64,000 nt of DNA, from positions 62,001-126,000 of the forward strand of contig NZ_JAKFHA010000021.1 in the NCBI RefSeq assembly GCF_021502675.1. The letters run 5' to 3'. Below the pieces are notes generated by a model, which saw only the letters and a list, made by a program, of their open reading frames with translations, made no database searches and was not told where the DNA came from. Of this stretch, positions 29,947 to 42,902 are shown piece after piece (position 1 is the first letter of the stretch; each line of letters begins with the position of its first letter). The position numbers and the translations under genes are program-made. This stretch comes from Yinghuangia soli. GTDB taxonomy: Bacteria; Actinomycetota; Actinomycetes; Streptomycetales; Streptomycetaceae.

Positions 29947-30858
29947 GTGAGCGACGATCAGCGCAGAAGGCCATTCGACGAGTCGACGGCACGTTCCGCC
30001 CTCAGCACTGCGGCCGAAAAATGCGGCGTCCCATACAGACCGGCCGTGCTGATCAGTCCTGTCGCCGACAACGCCCTGTTCCGCTTGCCCGACAACGTCG
30101 TCGGTCGGGTGTCGTCCACAGACCGCACCTTGGCACGGGCTGCCCGCGACGTGCAGATCGGACGATGGCTCAACAACAAGGGCTTTCCCGCTGTGGCGCC
30201 CGTGGAAGGCGTCGTGCAGCCCGTGGTGAGCCAGGGGCGCGTGGTCACGTTCTGGCACGAAGTCCCGGACGCCGTCATGGCGTCCACGCGCGAACTCGGA
30301 TCACTGCTCCACCACTTGCACAGCATGGCGGTGCCACCCGACGTGGACATCGAGCCGTTGCAGCCTTTCGTCAGGATCGACGCTCATCTCGAGGCTGCGG
30401 CCCCTCACCTCGCCGACCACGACGTCGCCTTTCTTGCCCAGCACCTGGCCGAGCTGCACATCGCATACGACGCACTCGATTTCGACCATCCGGTCGGGCT
30501 CATCCACGGCGACGCGAACCGGAAGAACGCCGTGCGGGGCTCGGACGGGCGGGCGGTGCTGCTGGACTTGGAGCGGTTCAGCGTCGGGCCGCGCCAGTGG
30601 GACCTCACAGTGTCCGAGGTGTACCGGCGGCTCGGCTGGTACACCGAGGCCGAGTACGACGACTTCGTGGACGCGTACGGGTGGGATGTCCGTGGGTGGG
30701 ATGGCCTGCCGATCCTGGTGGCCATCCGAGAGTTCCGGATGACCGCGTGGCTGGCGTCCCGCGTCGGCCGGGAACCCGCGCTGCGGTCCGAGGCGGAGAA
30801 GCGGATCGCTTCGTTACGTGCCCCCGATGCGCGACGAACTTGGACACCGGGCGATTGA
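29947..30858 (+). CDS. APH-fold phosphotransferase (aminoglycoside/choline kinase-like)
   Basis: 303 aa from GTG 29947. A protein-kinase-like small-molecule phosphotransferase: LFRLPDNVVGRVS in the nucleotide lobe, LGSLLHHLHSM, the catalytic loop LIHGDANRKN (Asp as base, Asn metal ligand) and the metal Asp in VLLDLERFSVGPRQWDL. There is no signal peptide. Neighbours do not define its substrate, which could be an aminoglycoside, a sugar or a lipid head group. It contains a TTA codon (30814). Its 3' end is only 7 bp from the converging TPR regulator, and it may belong functionally to that regulatory group. Confidence 0.8.
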   Translation: MSDDQRRRPFDESTARSALSTAAEKCGVPYRPAVLISPVADNALFRLPDNVVGRVSSTDRTLARAARDVQIGRWLNNKGFPAVAPVEGVVQPVVSQGRVVTFWHEVPDAVMASTRELGSLLHHLHSMAVPPDVDIEPLQPFVRIDAHLEAAAPHLADHDVAFLAQHLAELHIAYDALDFDHPVGLIHGDANRKNAVRGSDGRAVLLDLERFSVGPRQWDLTVSEVYRRLGWYTEAEYDDFVDAYGWDVRGWDGLPILVAIREFRMTAWLASRVGREPALRSEAEKRIASLRAPDARRTWTPGD

Positions 30859-30865
30859 CCAGCAC

Positions 30866-32233
30866 TCACGCAGCGTCAAAAGCCTCCCGCGCCCGCTCGC
30901 GGAACTCGGAGACCGCAGTGAGGCACGCATACGGCTGCAGTTCGCGGTTGAACGCCGTCAGATAGGACCGCACACGCGCCGACTCGATCCGGCCGGCCAT
31001 CGCCAGGCCCTCGGCAGCGGTGGCACAGGCCTGTTCGACGTCCTTGCCGTGGAGTTGGGCGGTGGCGAGCGAGACGCGGCAGAACACGCGGCTGCGCGGG
31101 TAGGCGTCCGAGAGTCCGCCGAGCGAGAGGCCTGCGTGGTACTCGGCGTCGGCCCTGGCGCGGAGCCCGGTGAAGCAGTGACCGAGTTCGTCGTGGAGTT
31201 CGGCGGCGTCGAAGTAGGCGATCCAGTCCGGGTTCTCTCCGACCACGCCGCGGTCGAAGGAGGTCTCGGCTTCGCGCATCACGCGGATGCACCCGCGCTT
31301 GTCGCCGATGCTGGCCAACGCGCGGGCCTCCATGGCGCAGTACATGGCGTGGACGGTTGGCGTCGCGTGCCCAGCGGCACCGAGCTTGGCGGCGCGAGCG
31401 AAATCGAGAGCCTGCTGGTACTCGCCGAGGAAGTTGGCCTGGTGGCTCATCAGGGCCAGAGCCTTGCCCCCGAGTGCGCGGTCACCCGAGGCGTGGGCGA
31501 AGTTGAGGGCTTGGACGAAGTACCGACGCGCGAGGCCGTGCAGGCCGATGTCGTAGGCCATCGCGCCGGTCTTGTAGGTGAACTGGGCAGCGACCGCGAA
31601 CAGTCGTCGCCCGACGCCATCGGTGTAGGCACCGTGCAGCAGAGGCACGACGTGATCGGCGAGGTACTGCACCGCGGCGGTCCGGGCGTGCCCACCGCCG
31701 TACTGGTGGTCGAGGTCCTCGAACATGCGGGTAGTGGCGCGGACGGCGTCTACGTCCCGGTCGCCGACTTTGACGGTGCGGCCCGGCCTGTAAGCGGGTT
31801 CGGCCGGCGGCGCCAAGAGCCAGCGTGTCATAGGTGTTGCGAGCATCGCGGCGGAGACCACGCCGTGGCGCAGGAAGTCGGTTCGCTTCAAGTCTTCGTT
31901 CCACAGGGTGCGGGCCGTGCGTAGTACGGCGGTTCGGTCCTCCGCGAAGTCAAGCGCGAGGTTGATCGGCGGGCCACCGCGTCCGGACATGCCAACCTCC
32001 GCAAGCGTGAGCGGCCGACCGAGGCGCCGCCCCAAAGCGGCGGCGAGCAGTTCGGGCTTCTCTCCGCGGGGCCGCATGCCCGACAGCCAGCGACCCACGT
32101 CCACGTGGTCGCACCGCACGTCGGTCAGTCCGCGTGCGGCGGCCATTGCCCGCACGTCGCGGGCGAGGGCAGAGCGTGAGTACTGGGCCTCGTCCATCAA
32201 CGCGGCCAAGTCGTCGTTCGGGGTGCCGGCCAT
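30866..32233 (-). CDS. TPR-containing transcriptional regulator (XRE-like N-terminus, Streptomyces type)
   Basis: 455 aa. ATG 32233 (MAGTPNDDLAALM) is preferred to the longer frame from 32377, which runs into the GTGCAC repeats. Residues about 1-85 resemble an HTH (SALARDVRAMAAARG, VDVGRWLSGMRPRG), typical of actinobacterial regulators that lack a canonical signature. From about residue 180 come alpha-helical TPR-like repeats (HARTAAVQYLADHVVPLLHG; YDIGLHGLARRYFVQALNFA; LGEYQQALDFARAAK; MYCAMEARALASIGD). Such proteins are thought to respond to peptides or other ligands through the TPR array. It is divergent from a small primase-like gene, and the repeats between are its likely operators. Confidence 0.75.
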   Translation of the reverse strand: MAGTPNDDLAALMDEAQYSRSALARDVRAMAAARGLTDVRCDHVDVGRWLSGMRPRGEKPELLAAALGRRLGRPLTLAEVGMSGRGGPPINLALDFAEDRTAVLRTARTLWNEDLKRTDFLRHGVVSAAMLATPMTRWLLAPPAEPAYRPGRTVKVGDRDVDAVRATTRMFEDLDHQYGGGHARTAAVQYLADHVVPLLHGAYTDGVGRRLFAVAAQFTYKTGAMAYDIGLHGLARRYFVQALNFAHASGDRALGGKALALMSHQANFLGEYQQALDFARAAKLGAAGHATPTVHAMYCAMEARALASIGDKRGCIRVMREAETSFDRGVVGENPDWIAYFDAAELHDELGHCFTGLRARADAEYHAGLSLGGLSDAYPRSRVFCRVSLATAQLHGKDVEQACATAAEGLAMAGRIESARVRSYLTAFNRELQPYACLTAVSEFRERAREAFDAA

Positions 32234-32330
32234 GTGCTGCTCCGGTCCGTGCCATTCGGTGGGGATGCACTCACCGTAGCTACGCCGACGCAATTCAGTT
32301 AGGGCATTCGAGTCATCCGATCGGGCTGGT

Positions 32331-32377
32331 GTGCACGGGAAGTGCACGGGGCGATGCCAAGTGCACGGGTTGTGCAC
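32331..32377. repeat. Four GTGCAC motifs in two 11-bp-spaced pairs
   Basis: The palindrome GTGCAC occurs at 32331, 32342, 32361 and 32372. Within each pair the spacing is 11 bp and the pairs repeat at 30 bp, so all four lie close to the same face of the helix. They sit between the TPR regulator and the divergent gene starting at 32416, and look like a cooperative operator. Confidence 0.65.
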
Positions 32378-32415
32378 GCTGCCACGACCGCCTTACAAGC
32401 GGTTGCGTGGTGCCT

Positions 32416-33027
32416 ATGACCTCACCGACACCGCGAACACGGAACTCGCTTCCTGTGGCGACCACTTGGACGCCCCAGCGCACCGCGGACCTGTACGCCT
32501 CGTTCGGGTGGCGTCTGGCTCGTGGGACCTACCGCACATACGACGGTTGCTCGTGTCGGAACCCGCAGTGCGCTGCCCCAGGCCTGCACGCAGCGGATGC
32601 GGACTGGACTCAGACGGCGAGCAGTGATCCGCAGTTCGTAAGAGCGTGGCTGCGACGGCACCGCCGGGCATGCATGGGAACGCCAGCCGGCGAGTGCTTC
32701 GACGTCCTCGAGCTGCCGAGGGCCACTGGTCTCCAGCTCATGAGGCGCTGGGAGTTCGCGGAGTTCCTCACCGGGCCGGTGCTCGCGTTGACTGGGCATC
32801 TGTTGGTCTTCACCGCGCTGCGTTCTTCGGGTACGGATGAAACGGGCATCGGCCGGTGGCTCCCGCAGACCGAGTTCCTCGTACTGCCGCCGGCCGGGCG
32901 CGCTTCTGCACCCGTGCGGTGGGTGGTGCCGCCGACCTCCGCCAACACGGTGCGCCTGCCGGACCCGGCGAACGTACTGGGGCTGATCGTCCGGTCGCCC
33001 CGACGCCGGCGAACGGCAAGCCCATGA
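32416..33027 (+). CDS. Small primase-polymerase-like (Prim-Pol N-terminal domain) protein
   Basis: 203 aa from ATG 32416 (in-frame GTGs at 32407 and 32410 are alternatives). The opening LYASFGWRL followed by GCSCRNPQCAAPGLH resembles the N-terminal domain of bifunctional DNA primase/polymerases, including its zinc-binding cysteines. Length equals that of the short stand-alone actinobacterial forms with no helicase part. The usual catalytic Asp pair is not convincing here (CFDVLELP), so enzyme activity is doubtful. Such proteins are common beside XRE/TPR regulators and ATP-binding proteins in Streptomyces, as here. It is ATGA-coupled to the next gene. Confidence 0.55.
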   Translation: MTSPTPRTRNSLPVATTWTPQRTADLYASFGWRLARGTYRTYDGCSCRNPQCAAPGLHAADADWTQTASSDPQFVRAWLRRHRRACMGTPAGECFDVLELPRATGLQLMRRWEFAEFLTGPVLALTGHLLVFTALRSSGTDETGIGRWLPQTEFLVLPPAGRASAPVRWVVPPTSANTVRLPDPANVLGLIVRSPRRRRTASP

Positions 33028-33477
33028 GTCCCCGGCAGCCGGTTGCCTTCGAGGCACGTGTGCCCTCCGTGCCGGAGTCGGTGGCGGTTGCACGCCGCAT
33101 GGTCACCGACCAGCTCAACGTCTGGGGCCTCGGCGGCAACGCCACACTCACAGATGTCGTGGTGCTCGGGGTGAGCGAACTGGTCACCAATGTCGTGCAG
33201 CACGCCGCCTCGTGTTCGCCCTTCGCAGACCTGACTCTGTACCTCGACGACCACCTTCTCGAACTGCGCGTCCATGACCGGCACCCTCAGCTGCCAAAGC
33301 TGCTTGCGCAGCCGCATCCTGAGAGCTTGGGAGGGCGCGGACTGGCGATTCTTGCTGCGCTCTGCACCGAAGCCGGTGGGGACATCCGCGTCATCCAGGA
33401 CCACCACGGAGTAGGTAAGGCGGTCACCCTGCGCTTGCCGTTGGACGGATACGGCGAGGTCGGTCCGAGTCCGGTCC
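33024..33477 (+). CDS. ATP-binding (HATPase, anti-sigma-like) protein, 3' end uncertain
   Basis: Starts at ATG 33024 within the stop of the upstream gene (ATGA). A GHKL ATPase of the RsbW/SpoIIAB-like actinobacterial type is clear over about 150 residues: the N-box VLGVSELVTNVVQHA, LELRVHDRHP at G1 and GGRGLAILAALC at G2, ending around PLDGYGEVGPS. In this frame no stop occurs until 34376, and everything past about 33478 overlaps a better-composed frame and reads as Arg/Gly-rich shadow. Either the protein has a long unstructured tail or there is a frameshift. I give the domain extent, not a true stop. Likely a regulatory kinase or sensor partner of the TPR regulator. Confidence 0.6.
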
Positions 33478-34089
33478 GTGCTGCCGAGGCACAACCAACA
33501 GACAGAGCTCGATGCGCCGCAGCTGTCGGTGTCGGAGGCCTTGATGAGCCGCTTGTTCCTACCGGGCGGAAACGTCCACGTCGTCGAGCCCCAGCTTCCG
33601 GAGGACGAGCCGTTCAAGGTCAGGCACGACACGGCAAGCCGCGAGACCATCTTGCTGGTGCGCCACAAGACCCCTGGCTCGACCCGCACCAACGTCGTGC
33701 CCACGACGTACCGCAACGCCAAGGAACTGTTCCAGGCTGCCGCGGATTTCGAGCGGTCGAGCGTCCAGCTGGGTCGGATCGCCACCATTTTCCAGAATCT
33801 GCTGGTCACCGAGTACGGCGTTCCCGAGAGCGAACTCGAGAAGAGCCTAGACGCGGTGCTGGCCGACCTGTACGCCGACGAGTCTGCGCACGCACCTTCC
33901 CAGAACGAGCAGGAGCAGGCCGCACCGCCGGCCGCCCCGCCCTTGCCTGGCACGGAGTCACGCATCGCGTTGCTCATCGAGAGCAGCACCCGCTTGGCCG
34001 ACGAACTCGACCTACGGGACCGCGAGGCCCTCGCGTCGCAAGTCGCCGAGGCGCTTGGTTGCGCACCCACTCGCGAGCGATCCGGCTGA
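33478..34089 (+). CDS. Hypothetical protein upstream of the lanthipeptide cluster
   Basis: 203 aa from GTG 33478, though ATG 33544 (MSRLFLPGG) is an equally good start. I do not recognise a family. It has a beta-rich N-terminal half (ETILLVRHKTPGSTRTNVVPTTYRNAKE), a helical middle (LFQAAADFERSSVQLGRIATIFQNLL, SELEKSLDAVLADLY) and an acidic/proline-rich linker near residue 145, then a helix (IALLIESSTRLADELDLRDREA). It is soluble, with no signal. It overlaps the open tail of the ATP-binding frame and is followed by a terminator-like hairpin, so it is probably the last gene of the regulatory unit rather than part of the lanthipeptide operon. Confidence 0.55.
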   Translation: MLPRHNQQTELDAPQLSVSEALMSRLFLPGGNVHVVEPQLPEDEPFKVRHDTASRETILLVRHKTPGSTRTNVVPTTYRNAKELFQAAADFERSSVQLGRIATIFQNLLVTEYGVPESELEKSLDAVLADLYADESAHAPSQNEQEQAAPPAAPPLPGTESRIALLIESSTRLADELDLRDREALASQVAEALGCAPTRERSG

Positions 34090-34093
34090 TACC

Positions 34094-34125
34094 GGCGGAC
34101 TCTGCAGGCGGGCAACGAGTCCGCC
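34094..34125 (+). terminator. Hairpin terminator before the lanthipeptide precursor gene
   Basis: GGCGGACTC (34094-34102) and GAGTCCGCC (34117-34125), a perfect 9-bp stem starting 5 bp after the stop codon at 34089. It separates the regulatory genes from the lanthipeptide operon. The remaining gap to 34403 should hold the operon promoter, but I see no clear consensus there. Confidence 0.6.
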
Positions 34126-34403
34126 CTTGCTCGGGACGCGTGCCCTCGTCCGGCGTTGCCGCCGGTTCGGGGCTGGTTCGAGGCCGTGGACAGCGCTTCG
34201 ACTCACCCGCCCGCAAGGCGGAAGCAGGCAACAGGGTGACTTCGGGGACAAGTGCCGTGCGCCTGATGGACAGTTCCGGCGCTGCACCCAGAACTCCCGG
34301 AAGCTGGCCTTCTCACCCGGGTTCCGGGGCCGCCGACGGCGGCGCTCTCTGGCTCCGAAAGGCCGGAGATTCCTGATCAGCCCACTGCGAAAGGACCTCC
34401 TTC

Positions 34404-34556
34404 ATGCTCGACGACGAGATCACGCCCGAGGTCGACGAGTTCGACCTCGACATCCGCGTCATCGAATCCGGTGACGACGGTGCCGACCTGATCACCATCA
34501 CGGACGACAACTGCGGCAGCACGTGCGCGAGCCCGTGTGCCACCAACGTCGCCTGA
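34404..34556 (+). CDS. lanA: FxLD-family lanthipeptide precursor
   Basis: 50 aa from ATG 34404 with AAGGA upstream. The leader is acidic and contains FDLD at residues 13-16, the FxLD motif that names this precursor family. The C-terminal core (about 31-50) is rich in Ser/Thr and Cys: Thr31, Thr33, Ser39, Thr40, Ser43 and Thr47 can be dehydrated, and Cys37, Cys41 and Cys45, spaced every four residues, can form thioether rings. Asp34-Asp35-Asn36 lies in the likely first ring and is a candidate site for the isoaspartate-type modification. The downstream LanB, LanC and methyltransferase-like genes fit. Ring topology and leader cleavage site are not predictable here. Confidence 0.85.
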   Translation: MLDDEITPEVDEFDLDIRVIESGDDGADLITITDDNCGSTCASPCATNVA

Positions 34557-34583
34557 CCGATCCGCAGTAGCGGCTGGTGCCGT

Positions 34584-34614
34584 GCCCGTACACCGGAATG
34601 AACCGCGTACGGGC
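34584..34614 (+). promoter_or_regulatory. Inverted repeat between precursor and LanB genes (possible attenuator)
   Basis: GCCCGTAC (34584-34591) and GTACGGGC (34607-34614), 8 bp with a 15-nt loop, in the 105-bp gap between the precursor stop and the lanB start. A partial terminator or processing hairpin here would raise precursor over enzyme levels, as in other lanthipeptide operons. Function is inferred. Confidence 0.45.
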
Positions 34615-34661
34615 CGGTACCGGTCGCCTGCGGAGCATCGCCATCCTGAGGAGGGAGCCAC

Positions 34662-37600
34662 ATGCCCGCCGCGCGCCGTCGCACGCTCTACCACACCGCC
34701 AACACGCTGCTCGTCCGCGCGACCGCGAACACGACGCCGCCGGTGGCCTCCTGGCCGGACCTGATGGCCGAATCGCCGGCCGACGTTCGGCGCCTATGTG
34801 CGTGGCTGCGCACGGTATGGGCTGTGGAGGCGGTCGCAGAGGCGGTCGAACACGCCAGTCCCGCACTAGCGGATGCGGTGGCAGCCGTGTGTGCTGCATC
34901 TGCCCCGGAGAACGGGAAGGTCCGTCGTGTGGCCCTGTCGTTGACCCGGTACCTGCTGCGTCTCGAACATCGGCCGACACCGTTCGGCCTCTTCGCCGGG
35001 GTCTGTCCGGCAGCGTTCGGGTCGTCGCTGACGGTGCGCTGGGGCACTGGGCACCGTGCTGTGGCCCGCGTCGGCGCTGCATGGCTCGGCGACGTCGTCG
35101 AGCAGTTGGAGGCGTGTCCGGTACTGCTGGCCAGGCTGCCGCTGATGGTCAACAACACGGCGTTCGTCCGGGGGAACCTGCTGATCGTCCCATACCCCGC
35201 ACAGACTGGAAGCGCCCGCCGCACCGGGGTGTCGATGCGCCTGACTGCGCCGCTGCGGACAGCATTGGATACGGCCCAGACACCAATCCTGTGCGGTGAC
35301 CTGCAGGACAAGCTTGGCGCGGAGTTCCCCGCCGCCAAACCCTCCAAAGTCGCCGGGCTGCTGTCCGACCTCGTCGGCCGCGGGGCGCTCCTGAGCAGCC
35401 TGCACGCCCCGTCCACCGTCATGTCCGCGTTCGGCCATCTCATGGCCGAGTTGCACGCCGCAAAAGCCGCAGAGATTCCGGCAGTGAAGGAGTTGGTGAA
35501 CCAGCTCGCCGACGTGCAGGACCTATTGGTGGAACACGAGCGCGCGCAGGAAGCGGCCGTACGACGCACTGTCCGCGCTGGCCTTCGTCGCACGATGACG
35601 GCGGTCAGTGCCGTCGCCGAACAGCCCGTGGCCGTGGACCTGATCACGGACTGCTCGCTCACGCTGCCCCAATCGGTGGCCCGAGAGGTCGAACGGGCTG
35701 CGACGTTACTGGCGCGGCTGACGCCCTACCCATTTGGTACCGCGGCGTGGCAGGAGTGGCACAACCGGTTCTTCGAACGCTACGGGGTCGGATCGGTGGT
35801 CCCGGTCCAGGACGCCATCGACCCGGACGTCGGCCTCGGATTCCCCGCCGGCTACCTCGACACGGACTCGCCGCGGCCTCCGTCACTGTCGGACCGCGAC
35901 CGACGGCTCCTCTCCATGGCCCAATCCGCGGCCTTGGACGGCGCCCGGGAAGTCGTCCTCGACGATGCGCTGCTCGGTGAACTCATCGACGACCAAGCCA
36001 CCGCACGGATGCAGCTCGCGCAGCACCTCGAACTCCGGTTCCACGTCAGTGCGGCCTCCCAAGAAGCCGTAGATCGCGGGGACTTCCAAATCGAGGTCGT
36101 CAGCGCATCGCGCGGCATCGGGACGACCACCGGGCGCTTCCTGGGCCTCCTGGACCCGGCCGACCACGAGATGGCCGCTGTCCTTGACGACCTCCCCACC
36201 GCCGACCCGGGAACGCTCCCAGTCCAGCTCTGCTTTCCCCCGCTGGCACGCAAGGACGGTCACGTCATCCGTGTTCCCGAACTGCTGCGTGCTGTGATCA
36301 GCCTCGGCGAGCACCGCGCTCCTGCTGATGACGTCATCCCCATCGACGACTTGGCAGTGGGCTGCGACCGACGACGGCTCTTTCTGGCCTCGATCGCCCG
36401 CGGATGCCGTGTGGAAGCGACGACACTGCACGCTCTGGACCTGCGTGCACACACCCCGCCGCTGGCACGATTCCTGGCCGATATCGGCCGCGCCCAGACA
36501 GCGGTGGTGGCCGCGTTCGACTGGGGCGCAGCCGCCCGGTTGCCGTTCCTCCCGCGCCTGCGCCAGGGCCGCATCGTCGTGTCCGCCGCCCGCTGGCGGC
36601 TGGATGCAACCGACCTGCCGGGCCCGGAGGCTGCCTGGCGCGACTGGCATCAGGCGATCCACGCGTGGCGGGAACGCCGCCGCCTGCCCAGGTGTGTGCT
36701 CCTGGCCGAAGGCGACCAACAGTTGCGGCTCGACCTGGACATCGACGCCCACCTGGTGCTTCTGCGCACGGCGCTGGACCGTACTGGGCATGCCTTCCTG
36801 GTTGAGGCCGGTACCTCGGACGCACGCGGCTGGTTCGCTGGGCACGCGCACGAGATCGTCGCACCTCTGACCGTCGCGGAGCCGGCAACCTGGCCTGCCG
36901 CGCCTCCGGTGACAGCAACTCGAGTGCTGAGCCGCGACCACGGCCACATCCCCGGGGATTCGCCGTGGCTACTGGCCAAGCTCTACGGTCACCCGGGCCG
37001 CCAGGCGGAGATCGTCGCCGACCACCTACCCGGTCTCTGGACGCTCTGGGACGAGCCTCCGGTGTGGTGGTTCATGCGCTACAAGGATCCACGACCGCAC
37101 CTGCGGCTGCGGATCGCGCTGCCCGATCCCACCGCGTTCGGGGAAGCAGCCGCACACGTCGGCGCCTGGGCAACGCGGCTGCGCAACAACGGGCTGCTGA
37201 ACGACCTCCAGTTCGCCACCTCCTATCCGGAAACCGGGCGGTGGGGCTCCGGAGTGCTGATGCGCGCGGCCGACGACGTCTTCGCCGCGGACTCTCGGGT
37301 ACTCGCCGTCCAATTCGCCCAGCGCTCCCGTTCGCATTGGCAGGCGTTGACCGCGGCGAACTTCGTGGCCATCGCGTGCGCCTTCACGGGCAGCCCCGAG
37401 GCGGGGATGCAGTGGCTGGTCCGCTTCGCAGCCGCCGACGCACCGGGGCCCATCGACCGTGCCGTTCATCGTGAGGCGATCCGGCTGGCCGACCCGAGCG
37501 ACGACTGGGCGGCGCTGCGCACGACACCGACGGGACCGGCGATCGTGCAGGCCTGGGGGCCTCGGGAACGAGCGTTGCGACGCTATCGCGGACTCCTGAG

Positions 37601-37757
37601 GGACGAAGACGGCCTCGGCCCCGACCTCATCCTGGATTCCCTGCTGCACGCTCACCACATCCGGGCCGCAGGCATCGCCAAGGACGATGAGCGCGTGTGC
37701 GTGCGCCTGGCCCGCGCTGCCGCGCTGGCGTGGACCCACCGCGCGGAACAGGGGTGA
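34662..37757 (+). CDS. lanB: Lanthipeptide dehydratase LanB (full length with C-terminal elimination domain)
   Basis: 1031 aa, ATG after GAGGAGGGAG. The glutamylation domain opens with the signature RPTPFGLFAGV at residues 104-114 and continues through LTRYLLRLEH and FFERYGVGSVVPVQ. The C-terminal SpaB-C/thiopeptide-type domain (from about residue 765, SPWLLAKLYG) contains WWFMRYKDPRPHLRLRIAL, part of the glutamate-elimination module. It uses glutamyl-tRNA to dehydrate Ser/Thr of the precursor to Dha/Dhb, in the cytoplasm with LanC. It contains a TTA codon (codon 349, 35706). LanC starts within its stop codon. Confidence 0.95.
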   Translation: MPAARRRTLYHTANTLLVRATANTTPPVASWPDLMAESPADVRRLCAWLRTVWAVEAVAEAVEHASPALADAVAAVCAASAPENGKVRRVALSLTRYLLRLEHRPTPFGLFAGVCPAAFGSSLTVRWGTGHRAVARVGAAWLGDVVEQLEACPVLLARLPLMVNNTAFVRGNLLIVPYPAQTGSARRTGVSMRLTAPLRTALDTAQTPILCGDLQDKLGAEFPAAKPSKVAGLLSDLVGRGALLSSLHAPSTVMSAFGHLMAELHAAKAAEIPAVKELVNQLADVQDLLVEHERAQEAAVRRTVRAGLRRTMTAVSAVAEQPVAVDLITDCSLTLPQSVAREVERAATLLARLTPYPFGTAAWQEWHNRFFERYGVGSVVPVQDAIDPDVGLGFPAGYLDTDSPRPPSLSDRDRRLLSMAQSAALDGAREVVLDDALLGELIDDQATARMQLAQHLELRFHVSAASQEAVDRGDFQIEVVSASRGIGTTTGRFLGLLDPADHEMAAVLDDLPTADPGTLPVQLCFPPLARKDGHVIRVPELLRAVISLGEHRAPADDVIPIDDLAVGCDRRRLFLASIARGCRVEATTLHALDLRAHTPPLARFLADIGRAQTAVVAAFDWGAAARLPFLPRLRQGRIVVSAARWRLDATDLPGPEAAWRDWHQAIHAWRERRRLPRCVLLAEGDQQLRLDLDIDAHLVLLRTALDRTGHAFLVEAGTSDARGWFAGHAHEIVAPLTVAEPATWPAAPPVTATRVLSRDHGHIPGDSPWLLAKLYGHPGRQAEIVADHLPGLWTLWDEPPVWWFMRYKDPRPHLRLRIALPDPTAFGEAAAHVGAWATRLRNNGLLNDLQFATSYPETGRWGSGVLMRAADDVFAADSRVLAVQFAQRSRSHWQALTAANFVAIACAFTGSPEAGMQWLVRFAAADAPGPIDRAVHREAIRLADPSDDWAALRTTPTGPAIVQAWGPRERALRRYRGLLRDEDGLGPDLILDSLLHAHHIRAAGIAKDDERVCVRLARAAALAWTHRAEQG

Positions 37758-39010
37758 CCACGATGACGGCCGCCCGGAACGCGGCCGACCTGATCGCCGA
37801 ACGGCTAGCTTCGCCGGACGATGCCCGCCGCTTGGTCCTGAAGAACGGCTGGGTGCCGCAGTCCCTCGCCTACGGAGCCGTCGGCGTCGCCCTGCTGCAC
37901 ATCGAACGCGCCCTCACCGGTGACGGCCCCTGGCAGCGCGCCCACGACTGGCTGTCCTGCGCCACCCACCAGCCACTCGTCGGCATCGACGCGAGCCACC
38001 TGTTCTTCGGGGTACCCGCACTGGCCTTCGCCCTCGACGCCGCAGGCCCTGGCCGCTACACCCGAGCCTTGGACGCCCTCGACCACCGGATCGGCGGCAT
38101 CGTCCGTGAGCGCGTCCAGCGCGCTCACGCTCGTATGGATCGCAGCGAACTGCCCGCGCTCGCGGAGTTCGACGCGATCCGCGGACTGACCGGCCTGGGC
38201 AGCTTGCTTCTGCGCCGTGACGTACACGCAGTATCGGCCCGCGCGGTCTTGGACTGCCTGGTACGGCTTACCGAACCGGTCACGGTCCACGGCGAGGCCC
38301 TGCCCGGCTGGTGGAGCCTGCTCGCTCCGTCCGGCAAGTCGTCACCGGACTTCCCTGGAGGGCATGCGAACTCCGGGATCGCCCACGGCATCGGCGCCGT
38401 TCTCGCCCTGCTGGGCTCTGCGGCCCGGCGCGGCATCACCGTAGACGGGCAAGACGCGGCTATCGCTCGGATCTTCGCCTGGCTCGACGAGTGGCGCCAG
38501 GACGGACCCACCGGACCATGGTGGCCCTACTGGGTCACCCGTGGGCAACTGCGCACCGGCAAGATCGGCAACGGGCCATCCCGACCATCGTGGTGTTACG
38601 GCACCGCGGGGCTGGCCCGTGCCCAGCAGATCGCCGCACTCGCCGCCGGAGACACGGCGCGCCAGCTCGCCGCCGAAGCCGCCCTTGCGCAAGCGATGAC
38701 CGACCCCGGACAACTCCAGCAGACCGCCGACCTGTCGCTGTGCCACGGCTACGCCGGACTGGCCCACATCACCCGCCTCGCCGCCAACGACGCCGGGACC
38801 TCTAACCTCGCCGGCTGCCTGCCCCGCCTCCTCGCGCCGATGACCGACATCAGCCCCGAAGCACTGTTCAGGCAGTTGCTGCACCCGTCGGACCGGCCCG
38901 GGGACATCGGGTTCCTCGACGGCGCTGCAGGCGTCGCCTTGGCCATGCACTCCGTCGCCGCAGCTACGCCGCCGATATCCGGTTGGGACGCCTGTCTCCT
39001 GATCACCTGA
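37754..39010 (+). CDS. lanC: Lanthionine synthetase C-like cyclase LanC
   Basis: 418 aa from GTG 37754 (GTGA overlap with lanB). ATG 37763 is an alternative start. The zinc ligands of the family are present: C281 in SWCYGTAG and C330-H331 in LCHGYAG. Repeating double-helix motifs with glycine turns (AYGAVGVALLHIERAL; IRGLTGLGSLLLRRD; FPGGHANSGIAHGIGAVLALLG; LDGAAGVALAMHS) build the alpha/alpha toroid. It catalyses Michael addition of cysteine thiols to Dha/Dhb to close the lanthionine rings. Size and motif order are complete. Confidence 0.95.
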   Translation: MTTMTAARNAADLIAERLASPDDARRLVLKNGWVPQSLAYGAVGVALLHIERALTGDGPWQRAHDWLSCATHQPLVGIDASHLFFGVPALAFALDAAGPGRYTRALDALDHRIGGIVRERVQRAHARMDRSELPALAEFDAIRGLTGLGSLLLRRDVHAVSARAVLDCLVRLTEPVTVHGEALPGWWSLLAPSGKSSPDFPGGHANSGIAHGIGAVLALLGSAARRGITVDGQDAAIARIFAWLDEWRQDGPTGPWWPYWVTRGQLRTGKIGNGPSRPSWCYGTAGLARAQQIAALAAGDTARQLAAEAALAQAMTDPGQLQQTADLSLCHGYAGLAHITRLAANDAGTSNLAGCLPRLLAPMTDISPEALFRQLLHPSDRPGDIGFLDGAAGVALAMHSVAAATPPISGWDACLLIT

Positions 39011-39037
39011 ACGCACCGCGACGAGAAGAGGTAGCCC

Positions 39038-41170
39038 GTGGGACCGGACGAATGGCCGCAGTACCTCGTTGAGTTCACCGACTGGAACGGTGCCGAAGCC
39101 ACAACCGCGGCACGTCTCCTGCCCGTTCTGAACGCGGCGACGGCGGCCGGTGACATCACGCGGTGGTCCTTCCTGCGCAAGCACCCGCACTGGCGACTGC
39201 GCTACCACTCGCCTCATCAGACCGCGTCTGCTGGGTCCGCGCTCCTGCGGCAGGCCCTCGACTCCCTGGTCACCGAAGGCCTGGCCACCCGCTGCACGCC
39301 CAGCATCCACGAACCCGAGACCACCGCGTTCGGCGGCCCCGAGGGCATCGAGGTGGCGCACGACCTGTTCCACCACGACAGCGGAGCCGTCCTGGCCCAC
39401 GGCGCCCGGCAGCGCGCAGGAGGCGCAAACTCCCCGAGCCTGGGGCGCCGCGAACTCGCCGTCCTACTGCCCAGTGTGCTCATGCGCGCCGCCCGCCTGG
39501 ACTGGTACGAGCAAGGCGACGTCTGGGCCAAGGTCGCCCACCAACGTCCTGGTCCTGACGGCCCGCGCACCTCGGCGCGGCAACGCAGTTCCGTCCAGCG
39601 GCTCATGACCATCGACGCCGGCCCCAGCAGCGCCTTGGTCACCTCCGGTGCGCTCACCCACCTGGCCGCCTGGGTCGCCGCATTCGATCACGCCGGGAGC
39701 CGTCTGGCAGAACTGGCCGGGCGGGGGCGGCTGGGGCGGGGCCTGCGGGCGGTGATCGCCCACCACGTGATCTTCCACTGGAACCGGCTTGGACTGCCCC
39801 GCGCGGACCAGCACATCCTGTCCACCCTCACGAAAGAAGCCGTCATGGGAACGAGTGAATCTCACGCATCACCGAGCACGTCAGCCCCTGTCCAGACGGA
39901 TGCCGACCATAGCCTCGGGAAGGTGAACACCGACCTGATCGACAACGCCGCACCCCACGCCGAGAACCTGCGGAACACGCTGGTCGACCAACTCCTCGCT
40001 GACGGGCACGTGCGCTCGTCCCGCGTCGAGCACGCGCTGAGGAACGTACCTCGTCACCTGTTCGTACCCCAGGCCCCGTTGGAAGCCGCCTACGCGAACA
40101 GCACTGTGGACACCAAGTTCGACGATGCCGGAGCTCCGATCAGCTGCGCGTCCCAGCCCGGCATCGTCGCCATGATGCTCGAGCAGCTCGATGTCCAACC
40201 GGGCCACCGGGTGTTGGAGCTCGGTGCCGGCACCGGCTACAACGCGGGACTGCTCGCCCACCTGGTCGGTCCCGAAGGCCACGTCACCACCGTCGACGTC
40301 GACGCTGACATCGTGGACGATGCCCGCGCTGGCCTGGCCGCCGCAGGCTTCGACAACGTGACCGTAGTCCTCGCCGACGGAGCCATCGGCCACGCCGTGA
40401 ACGCACCATACGACCGCATCATCGCCACCGTCGGCGCGCACGGCGTCCCCCAAGCATGGCTGGACCAACTCGTCCCCGACGGACGCCTCCTGGCGCCGTT
40501 GCGACTGCGTGGCAGCGTTTCGCGGTCGATCGCGTTCGAGCAGCACAACGGAGTCTGGCGAAGCGTCGGCAGCGAGATGAACACCTTCATGCCCCTCCGG
40601 CGCGGAATCGCCGACGACCCGCGCACCACCATCCCGCTCACCGCCGACCGCACGGTGACCCTGGTGACCAACAGCGACCAGGTCGTGGACGCGGCCGCGC
40701 TCGCCGACGTCCTGGACCACCCCCGAGCACAGACCTGGACCGGAGTCACCTTCCGCGGACCGGAGTCGGCCGAGTGGCTGGAGCTGTGGCTGACGTGCCT
40801 GCTGCCCAACGGCCTGAGCCGCATGCCCGCCAACAAGCGGGCCCTGGAAAGCGGCGTGCTCACCAACCCCTACCCCAGCGCCACCGCGTCGTTCGACAAG
40901 GGCGCGCTGACCTACCTCACCCGGCGTAAGGCCGACCAGGTCGCGCAGGACGGCGCTGCACTGCACGAGTTCGGCGTCGTCGGACACGGCCCGGGCAGCG
41001 ACGAACTCGCGGAACGCGTCACGGAGGCGATCCGTGCCTGGGACCACGAGCACCGCGGCCAGGAAGTCCGCTTCGAGATCCAGGCGCTCGACGCGGTACC
41101 CCCATCACCGCGTCCTGGACGGTTCGCCTTCGCCAATGCGATCAACCGGATCGTCATCGAGTGGCTGTGA
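39038..41170 (+). CDS. Fusion of thiopeptide-type (SpaB-C-like) domain and protein-L-isoaspartate-methyltransferase-like domain (FxLD system)
   Basis: 710 aa from GTG 39038, GAAGAGG upstream. Residues about 1-262 form a stand-alone SpaB-C/thiopeptide-type bacteriocin domain (QYLVEFTDWNGAEAT, WSFLRKHPHWRLRYH). After a Ser/Pro-rich linker (about 270-290), residues about 295-710 are a PIMT-like methyltransferase: the substrate region SCASQPGIVAMMLEQL, SAM-binding VLELGAGTGYNAGLLA near residue 392, TVDVDADIVDDA and YDRIIATVGAHGVP, plus an extra C-terminal domain. PIMT-type partners of FxLD lanthipeptides methylate an Asp, leading to succinimide or isoaspartate. A likely target is the Asp-Asp of the core. 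The fusion order is the notable feature. Confidence 0.88.
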   Translation: MGPDEWPQYLVEFTDWNGAEATTAARLLPVLNAATAAGDITRWSFLRKHPHWRLRYHSPHQTASAGSALLRQALDSLVTEGLATRCTPSIHEPETTAFGGPEGIEVAHDLFHHDSGAVLAHGARQRAGGANSPSLGRRELAVLLPSVLMRAARLDWYEQGDVWAKVAHQRPGPDGPRTSARQRSSVQRLMTIDAGPSSALVTSGALTHLAAWVAAFDHAGSRLAELAGRGRLGRGLRAVIAHHVIFHWNRLGLPRADQHILSTLTKEAVMGTSESHASPSTSAPVQTDADHSLGKVNTDLIDNAAPHAENLRNTLVDQLLADGHVRSSRVEHALRNVPRHLFVPQAPLEAAYANSTVDTKFDDAGAPISCASQPGIVAMMLEQLDVQPGHRVLELGAGTGYNAGLLAHLVGPEGHVTTVDVDADIVDDARAGLAAAGFDNVTVVLADGAIGHAVNAPYDRIIATVGAHGVPQAWLDQLVPDGRLLAPLRLRGSVSRSIAFEQHNGVWRSVGSEMNTFMPLRRGIADDPRTTIPLTADRTVTLVTNSDQVVDAAALADVLDHPRAQTWTGVTFRGPESAEWLELWLTCLLPNGLSRMPANKRALESGVLTNPYPSATASFDKGALTYLTRRKADQVAQDGAALHEFGVVGHGPGSDELAERVTEAIRAWDHEHRGQEVRFEIQALDAVPPSPRPGRFAFANAINRIVIEWL

Positions 41171-41171
41171 C

Positions 41172-42551
41172 ATGGACGCCGGCCAAGTAGCCCGCTGGTT
41201 CCCGCTCGTCGCCCGCCCGCGGCCGACCTGCCCGCCACTGACCACGCGAATCGACGAAGTCTGCGAGCTCGCGCGCTCCGCGGCAACCGCTGGTGGCGAC
41301 GCCCTGGCGCGTGCCGCGGCCACTCACAACAAGGCAGCGTTAATCGCGAGCGACTGCGGGATGCCCGAACTGGCCCGCTCGCTGTGCTGGCGCCAAGCCG
41401 AAATCTTCCTGCGCGCCCAGCCTCTGGGCGCGCAGCAGGCCCGCTGCGCCCTCGAGCCCCTGGTCAACCTCGCCCGCCTGCGGATCCGCAATGGCGACGG
41501 CGATGATGCTTACCAACTGCTCGACGCGCTTGCCCGCGCCGTCCGAGCCCGAACCGCGGCAACGATCGACAGCCGACGGCTGTCCTTCCACGACCTCACC
41601 GCCACAGACCAAGACCACCAGACCCTCTGCCGGTGGCTTTGGACGGTCCTGTTGGCAGACGGCACCCGCGCCCTCGCGGCAGCCGGCCGCTGGCACGATG
41701 CGGCCACACACGCAGCAATCTTCAAGGGAGTCGGTGCACGGCTCCTCGACGGCCGACAAGTCACCATCTTGGCGCTGGCCTACGACAAGCAACTCGACTT
41801 GGCCGCCGCCTTGTTGGAACAGAGCGCCATCACCGAGCCCTGGGAACACGCCGTCCAGGGCCTGCTCCACATCTTCTGTCAGAGGATGGCCGGAGGCACA
41901 ACCCAGCCCAACGCACAGCGGATGCTCTACGCCGCGCACACGCTGCTTCAGGAGCACGCACCCGCGACGGCCGTCTTCCGCACTCGGGTCGCCCTTACCG
42001 CACTTGCCCTCAGCGACGCCATCGATGGCCCGCTGACAAACCAAGTGCGCGACGCACTGATCACCGCTGCCTCGAACGACGCCTACACCGCGCGCGATGT
42101 ACTCGGGCATCCGCACCTGCACACAGCACTGACGGCCGACCAAAGGCTCAACCTGGCCACGGTCTGCCAAGCTGCCGGATTCGACACCAGGGCAATCGCC
42201 GTCCCGTTCCACAACAGGCTGATCGCTGCAGTGGAATTGGCCGAATGCCACCTGCGGGGGCTACTTGGCCGTGGCGTTGAGGAGGACCGCCAACCGAACG
42301 TCGCCACGAACTCGGACACTCTGGCAGGCAACAGCACCGCTGGTCGAAGAAGCACGCAACCGCAAAGTTGTGAGCTCCGTTTGCTATGCGGCCGGAATCA
42401 GCATCACCGCTGCCAGCGCGCCTGCGAGCAAGAACGGCCCCAGAGCGATGGTTCGAGGCCTGGGCCGTCTTCGCAGGAAGGAGCTGACGGCCAGCAGTGC
42501 TACCCCGGAAGCGGCAAATACGAAGCCGAGCAACAGAGCCCCCAAAGCTGA
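41172..42551 (+). CDS. Hypothetical helical protein at the end of the lanthipeptide operon
   Basis: 459 aa from ATG 41172, one base after the previous stop, so clearly in the operon. The family is not recognised. Residues about 30-370 are almost entirely helical with Ala/Leu-rich pairs (DALARAAATHNKAALIA; LARSLCWRQAEIFLR; YQLLDALARAVRARTA; GTRALAAAGRWHDAATHAAIF), like a TPR-type scaffold. No catalytic motif, signal or membrane segment is seen. Past about residue 370 (42280 onward) the composition changes to Arg/Ser/Gln-rich and the frame overlaps the opposite-strand prepilin peptidase, so the last about 90 residues are doubtful. It has a TTA codon (codon 57). Could be a regulator, or a partner in peptide handling. 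Confidence 0.6.
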   Translation: MDAGQVARWFPLVARPRPTCPPLTTRIDEVCELARSAATAGGDALARAAATHNKAALIASDCGMPELARSLCWRQAEIFLRAQPLGAQQARCALEPLVNLARLRIRNGDGDDAYQLLDALARAVRARTAATIDSRRLSFHDLTATDQDHQTLCRWLWTVLLADGTRALAAAGRWHDAATHAAIFKGVGARLLDGRQVTILALAYDKQLDLAAALLEQSAITEPWEHAVQGLLHIFCQRMAGGTTQPNAQRMLYAAHTLLQEHAPATAVFRTRVALTALALSDAIDGPLTNQVRDALITAASNDAYTARDVLGHPHLHTALTADQRLNLATVCQAAGFDTRAIAVPFHNRLIAAVELAECHLRGLLGRGVEEDRQPNVATNSDTLAGNSTAGRRSTQPQSCELRLLCGRNQHHRCQRACEQERPQSDGSRPGPSSQEGADGQQCYPGSGKYEAEQQSPQS

Positions 42552-42902
42552 ACGCCATCCGAGTGGTCCAAGGCACAGCGCGATGAGACCTGCCAACTTT
42601 GCGTCTCCGCCTCCGAGGTCGCCGAAGACTGCGATCAATGCGAACACCAGCAGGACGAACATCCCGATGATGGACGAAGTCACCATGCGCGTCGCCGAAC
42701 CAGAGCACACGGCTGCCGAAGCGAGCAGCATGAGACTCGCGCCTCCTGCAGGAGCCAGGATCCGATTCGGGAGCCTGCGCGCCGTGACGTCCGTGTAGGT
42801 GAGAGCCGGTGCGACGGCCACGATCACCAACTGCGGTCCCAGCCAAGGGTTCCAGCCGCGGCAGAGAACGACGCCACCGCTGAGCGCAGCACCGACAGCC
42901 AC
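42384..42902 (-). CDS. tadV: Prepilin peptidase, A24/TadV-CpaA type
   Basis: At least 172 aa. The two catalytic aspartates of type IV prepilin peptidases are visible: TYTDVTARRLPN near the second helix and the GxGD motif as DLGGGDAKLAG. Five to six hydrophobic segments make it an inner-membrane protein. The start is uncertain: GTG 42902 has no Shine-Dalgarno, while a strong AGGAGG (complement of 42961-42966) lies further upstream where the frame is still open (reading DEGRRSLAIAALVAV) but without ATG, GTG or TTG at the right distance. It should process the Flp pilin and pseudopilins of the tad operon at 44-55 kb. Confidence 0.85.
   Translation of the reverse strand: MAVGAALSGGVVLCRGWNPWLGPQLVIVAVAPALTYTDVTARRLPNRILAPAGGASLMLLASAAVCSGSATRMVTSSIIGMFVLLVFALIAVFGDLGGGDAKLAGLIALCLGPLGWRSALGALLLGFVFAASGVALLAVSSFLRRRPRPRTIALGPFLLAGALAAVMLIPAA

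Follow-up and report, generated by a model that had tools for sequence, protein, structure and literature searches.

Gene content and extent of the locus

The window analyzed here, a 64,000-nucleotide stretch of the Yinghuangia soli genome, contains five consecutive genes on the forward strand. The first, a coiA1-like gene (34404–34556), encodes a 50-residue precursor peptide, MLDDEITPEVDEFDLDIRVIESGDDGADLITITDDNCGSTCASPCATNVA, with FDLD at residues 13–16 of the leader and T33, D34, D35, N36, C37, T40, C41, C45, and T47 as the relevant core residues. An earlier note on this DNA had described this peptide, with its leader motif, its three cysteines, and the Asp34-Asp35-Asn36 stretch, and all of these features are present. 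The precursor scored 54.5 bits against TIGR04363, named "FxLD family lanthipeptide" (cut-off 30), and no solved structure resembling it by sequence was found. The same note had proposed searching the genome for further precursors; the window copy was the sole match in 9.7 Mb.

The next two genes encode a full-length LanB and a LanC. LanB (34662–37757, + strand; PF04738, PF14028) is predicted to be a Glu-tRNA-dependent dehydratase that carries an anti-type glutamyl lyase domain of its own: Lant_dehydr_N and Lant_dehydr_C were matched over their full length, and the lyase domain (residues ~769–1020) conserves the canonical anti-lyase residues R815, R817, E857, R860, and H996, as in coi-type systems. 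LanC (37754–39010, + strand; PF05147/LANC_like) is a predicted cyclase whose zinc ligands C300, C349, and H350, numbered from the long open reading frame that begins at 37697, are invariant in 68 of 68 relatives. Because homology to relatives begins at approximately residue 25 of the long reading frame, the true start is probably either GTG 37754, which overlaps the LanB stop, or ATG 37763. Pfam matches thus confirm the full-length LanB and LanC of the earlier note, with only the LanC start in need of correction.

LanSA (39038–41170, + strand) is a CoiSA-like protein of 710 residues, and directly 3′ of it lies a fifth gene (41172–42551, + strand) that we take to be probably coiH. The earlier note had placed an FxLD lanthipeptide cluster at 34404–41170. 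The identification is borne out by family matches above cut-off for the precursor, LanB, LanC, and LanSA, and the four genes lie where the note had put them. Its end point truncates the cluster, however, because a homologue of the fifth gene lies directly downstream of LanSA in 74 loci; the cluster therefore reaches 42551.

The order and spacing of these genes are conserved far beyond chance. Precursor, LanB, LanC, and LanSA follow one another in most of 80 loci from named actinobacterial genomes, and some 70 loci, drawn from many genera, share the gene order and spacing, with the A-B-C-SA-H order kept in Streptomyces, Frankia, Actinomadura, Micromonospora, Amycolatopsis, and others. Proteins scoring above the TIGR04364 cut-off are encoded by 138 of 298 genomes in the family, and a recognizable relative of the window precursor by 83 of 395 genomes, while public plasmid records already attach the names fxlM and FxLD family lanthipeptide to such genes. 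The cluster is thus an ordinary member of a widespread group, a fresh example of a known system with the standard set of five genes.

Several other reading frames lie upstream. Two overlapping ones on the forward strand (32134–33027 and 32856–34376), with matches to Prim-Pol and HATPase_c_2, end just before the precursor gene. Farther away, an APH-type phosphotransferase gene (29947–30858) and an adjacent reverse-strand frame with no Pfam match (30866–32377) both have weak homologues in a few coi-type loci (L075, L091, L102), which may reflect chance or a loose association.

Ring register and the fused LanSA enzyme

The rings of CoiA1 are formed by T43/C47, T50/C55, and C51/T57 (PMC9486935). 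Subtracting 10 from each position gives T33/C37, T40/C45, and C41/T47, all of which are present in the window precursor. We compared this register across 50 distinct related cores and found the full pattern, T-x3-C-x2-[TS]-C-x3-C-x-[TS], in 21. The last 14 residues of the precursor nearly match those of Streptomyces coi cores; a single substitution separates its end, CGSTCASPCATNVA, from the CGSTCSSPCATNVA of several Streptomyces cores. The closest precursor that we found was 76% identical, and none was identical. The earlier note had held the core sequence and ring pattern to be new; the CoiA1-like register and the near-identical core end place both in a known family.

The N-terminal domain of LanSA (residues ~1–275) matches Lant_dehydr_C and TIGR03891 (thiopep_ocin; residues 13–268), and residues 308–709 match TIGR04364, "methyltransferase, FxLD system." Across its full length the protein shares 60–63% identity with Streptomyces proteins, one of them from S. 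coelicoflavus, and it groups with Streptomyces LanSA in a tree (support 100/96). The fusion of a SpaB-C-type domain to a PIMT-type methyltransferase is therefore present as first described, but it is not new. In CoiSA of the S. coelicolor coi cluster, a methyltransferase is joined to a syn-glutamyl lyase (Sarksian and van der Donk, PMC9486935; PMC9011353), and stand-alone elimination domains frequently occur as fusions with PIMT proteins (Walker et al., PMC7268733).

The active-site residues mark the second SpaB-C domain as a likely syn-glutamyl lyase in particular. LanSA has K48 (equivalent to CoiSA K46), R53 and R55 (CoiSA R51 and R53), Glu94 within a conserved E-P-E motif, and Ala97, which is the set expected of a syn-lyase. 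Each of the 69 related fusions compared keeps Lys48 and Arg55; Ala97 occupies the site of the anti-lyase Arg, where every one of these fusions has Ala or Val, whereas the LanB lyase of the same clusters retains the Arg in 63 of 65. H247 falls near the aligned position of the His base, at a site where fused and LanB lyases align only with gaps. These Lys/Arg marks constitute a test on sequence, and the activity that they predict has been observed in relatives: the CoiSA lyase, acting beside the ordinary anti-lyase of a full-length LanB, gives one D-allo-L-methyllanthionine (MeLan) ring (PMC9486935), and the related SptBb performs a net syn-elimination as judged by NMR (PMC9890492).

A noneliminating role for this domain, either a thiopeptide-like [4+2] cycloaddition or recruitment of substrate for the methyltransferase, was raised for extra domains of this kind by Walker et al. 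(PMC7268733), and TIGR03891 is itself named for thiopeptide-type proteins. The residues nonetheless fit the syn-lyase group, with the Lys kept in every fusion, and CoiSA(ED), which shares these residues, carries out glutamate elimination in cells, where glutamylated peptide builds up with the K46A variant (PMC9011353). We regard a noneliminating domain as the least probable of the alternatives considered here. Scarcely more probable is a reading in which the methyltransferase half serves ordinary isoaspartate repair and the Asp of the product stays unmodified. This half does match PCMT, and its solved relatives are repair PIMTs. However, it retains the SAM motif and scores 487.7 bits against TIGR04364 (cut-off 320), covering model positions 1–394, the full length of the model, and its 131.6 bits against the repair family TIGR00080 fall short of that model's cut-off (159). 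It also has a long C-terminal extension like that of peptide aspartyl methyltransferases (PMC10787088), and an Asp is retained in ring A of most related cores. We take LanSA to be a putative syn-glutamyl lyase joined to a putative peptide aspartyl O-methyltransferase.

If so, the target of methylation is most likely Asp35. The Asp of the T-x-D-G-C motif is the methylation target (PMC13001092), and the window core has the corresponding T-x-D-G/N-C arrangement inside the predicted first ring. The earlier note had pointed to the whole Asp-Asp-Asn triad; an Asp within the first ring stands as the likely target, but the triad as such does not. The main departure of the window core is that Asn36 replaces the Gly that usually follows the target Asp, the residue at n+1 being Gly in 44 and Asn in 5 of the 50 distinct cores. 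Asn is also found at this position in a second species of the same genus (L141), and a tree of the fused enzymes requires at least four changes between Gly and Asn, so we consider Asn36 a recurrent variant. Aspartimide formation is generally slower without Gly at n+1, which makes the fate of Asp35 the main chemical uncertainty. In the coi literature that we examined, no report of isoAsp in a coi-type product was found, and the coi reconstitution employed CoiSA's lyase half alone (PMC9486935, PMC9011353).

An intact cluster could thus still yield a product whose Asp goes no further than the methyl ester, or is left unmodified, with Asn36 blocking the aspartimide. The rarity of Asn in related cores and its presence in this genus fit such an outcome, which we judge unlikely, though less so than either enzymatic alternative above. 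Against it, Asn recurs in several lineages that have intact enzymes, and a review mentions non-Gly residues at n+1, Asn among them (PMC13001092).

Three further loci were recorded among the relatives of these genes. The precursor of Pseudonocardia kunmingensis (L122:4318–4488), beside a fused LanSA, has TDNGC, in which Asn replaces the target Asp (position 35), and is a natural case of an Asn-Gly site. Streptomyces olivaceus NRRL B-3009 (L098) and locus L128 carry orphan FxLD methyltransferases, no LanB, LanC, or precursor having been found in the flanks retrieved. We considered whether L098 is olv itself and rejected this, as none of these three genes was found within the locus.

The fifth gene and its association with syn-lyases

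The assignment of the fifth gene as coiH comes from its position, the known CoiH having been compared by location, and is probable. We found a single mention of CoiH in the literature, as a protein of unknown function. The window gene is single-copy in the genome. Its product is conserved over residues ~1–365, with strongly conserved motifs FPLVxRxRPA at the N terminus and GxGxRLLDGRQ, while the last ~90 residues are unconserved. This tail (42310–42551) runs past the conserved end and lies partly antisense to a reverse-strand Peptidase_A24 (type IV leader peptidase) reading frame at 42384–42902; a lost stop or a frameshift is a possible cause of the overrun.

AlphaFold models the protein as a helical solenoid, and most of residues 20–370 have pLDDT above 90. 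The window copy received no Pfam or NCBIfam assignment, its relatives gave only scattered, weak TPR matches, no relative was found in the PDB by sequence, and Foldseek gave no match at E ≤ 0.001. VIA-align recovered a general TPR-like arrangement with Z up to 13.9; because this match is only generally TPR-like, we read no function from the fold. We also considered CoiH as the missing leader protease and found nothing to support it.

Among 101 Streptomycetaceae genomes, counted with kinship ignored, 41 of 44 CoiH copies lie within 3 kb of a syn-lyase. In the same counts, CoiH accompanies 29 of 31 fused syn-lyases versus 12 of 31 stand-alone ones, and 0 of 29 FxLD methyltransferases with no syn-lyase nearby. 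The clusters with a separate methyltransferase (MT) that we opened have the order MT, (A), B, C, syn-lyase, CoiH, and therefore CoiH follows the lyase, not the methyltransferase. A tight rule must be rejected, since 19 of 31 stand-alone syn-lyases have no CoiH, and 11 such clusters that we opened contained no diverged CoiH relative even at E = 1; CoiH is thus associated with syn-lyases, though not all of them require it. Nor is it essential for ring formation in E. coli, because the published coi reconstitution gave cyclized product without it (PMC9486935, PMC9011353). Our literature search, with many subscription papers beyond its reach, returned no paper reporting the association.

We tentatively postulate, while thinking it rather doubtful, that the CoiH family is a dedicated partner of the syn-glutamyl lyase, for example by holding the precursor, as a scaffold, such that syn-elimination is confined to the last Thr. 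If true, CoiH would be the missing determinant of which ring receives which stereochemistry. In any case, the link to the syn-lyase offers a lead that can be put to the test for a protein of unknown function encoded by many actinobacterial clusters.

Proposed biosynthesis and comparison with known systems

Together, the gene content, synteny, catalytic residues, and ring register observed in the window make it very likely that the cluster encodes a coi-type pathway to a class I lanthipeptide of the FxLD family, working as follows, with the rings and stereochemistry modeled on the published coi reconstitution and isoAsp on that of olv. With Glu-tRNA(Glu) as donor, LanB would glutamylate the precursor at Thr33, Thr40, and Thr47, and its lyase domain would eliminate glutamate in the anti sense at Thr33 and Thr40 to give (Z)-Dhb. 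Elimination at Thr47 by the syn-lyase domain of LanSA would instead give (E)-Dhb. LanC would then close three rings, Thr33-Cys37, Thr40-Cys45, and the backward Cys41-Thr47, the last of which is expected to be D-allo-L-MeLan; such a ring, which the earlier note does not mention, is the main consequence to be expected if the second SpaB-C domain is a syn-glutamyl lyase. The methyltransferase half of LanSA would subsequently methylate Asp35 inside the first ring, and the ester may collapse to an aspartimide and hydrolyze, at least partly, to isoAsp. The cluster adds to the coi-type lanthipeptides a slightly divergent one whose modification site reads Asp-Asn, and it offers a natural way to ask whether aspartimide formation can be driven by the methyltransferase when Gly is absent.

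The closest known system is the coi cluster of Streptomyces coelicolor A3(2), which has the same gene content (CoiA1, CoiB, CoiC, CoiSA, and CoiH; PMC9486935, PMC9011353). The window shares with it the fusion of a syn-glutamyl lyase to a methyltransferase and the Thr/Cys register, and with Streptomyces coi-type loci a near-identical core end; its fused enzyme is ~62% identical to that of S. coelicoflavus. It differs in having one precursor where coi has three, and in the residue that follows the target Asp, which is Asn here and Gly in related Streptomyces coi cores. The olv cluster of Streptomyces olivaceus NRRL B-3009 (OlvA, OlvB, OlvC, and OlvSA) likewise has an FxLD-type precursor, a LanB, a LanC, and an Asp in the first MeLan ring, and its methyltransferase, a relative of the one in the window, makes isoAsp (PMC9486935, PMC13001092). 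An olv-type cluster has a stand-alone methyltransferase and no second lyase, CoiH, or D-allo ring, whereas the window has a second, fused lyase and a probable CoiH; OlvA also has an extra Lan ring relative to the window precursor. Finally, the lyase domain of LanSA resembles the SapT lyase SptBb in its syn-lyase residues, with Lys in place of Tyr and loss of the anti-lyase Arg (PMC9011353, PMC9890492), but SptBb belongs to a split dehydratase and, unlike the window lyase, carries no fused methyltransferase.
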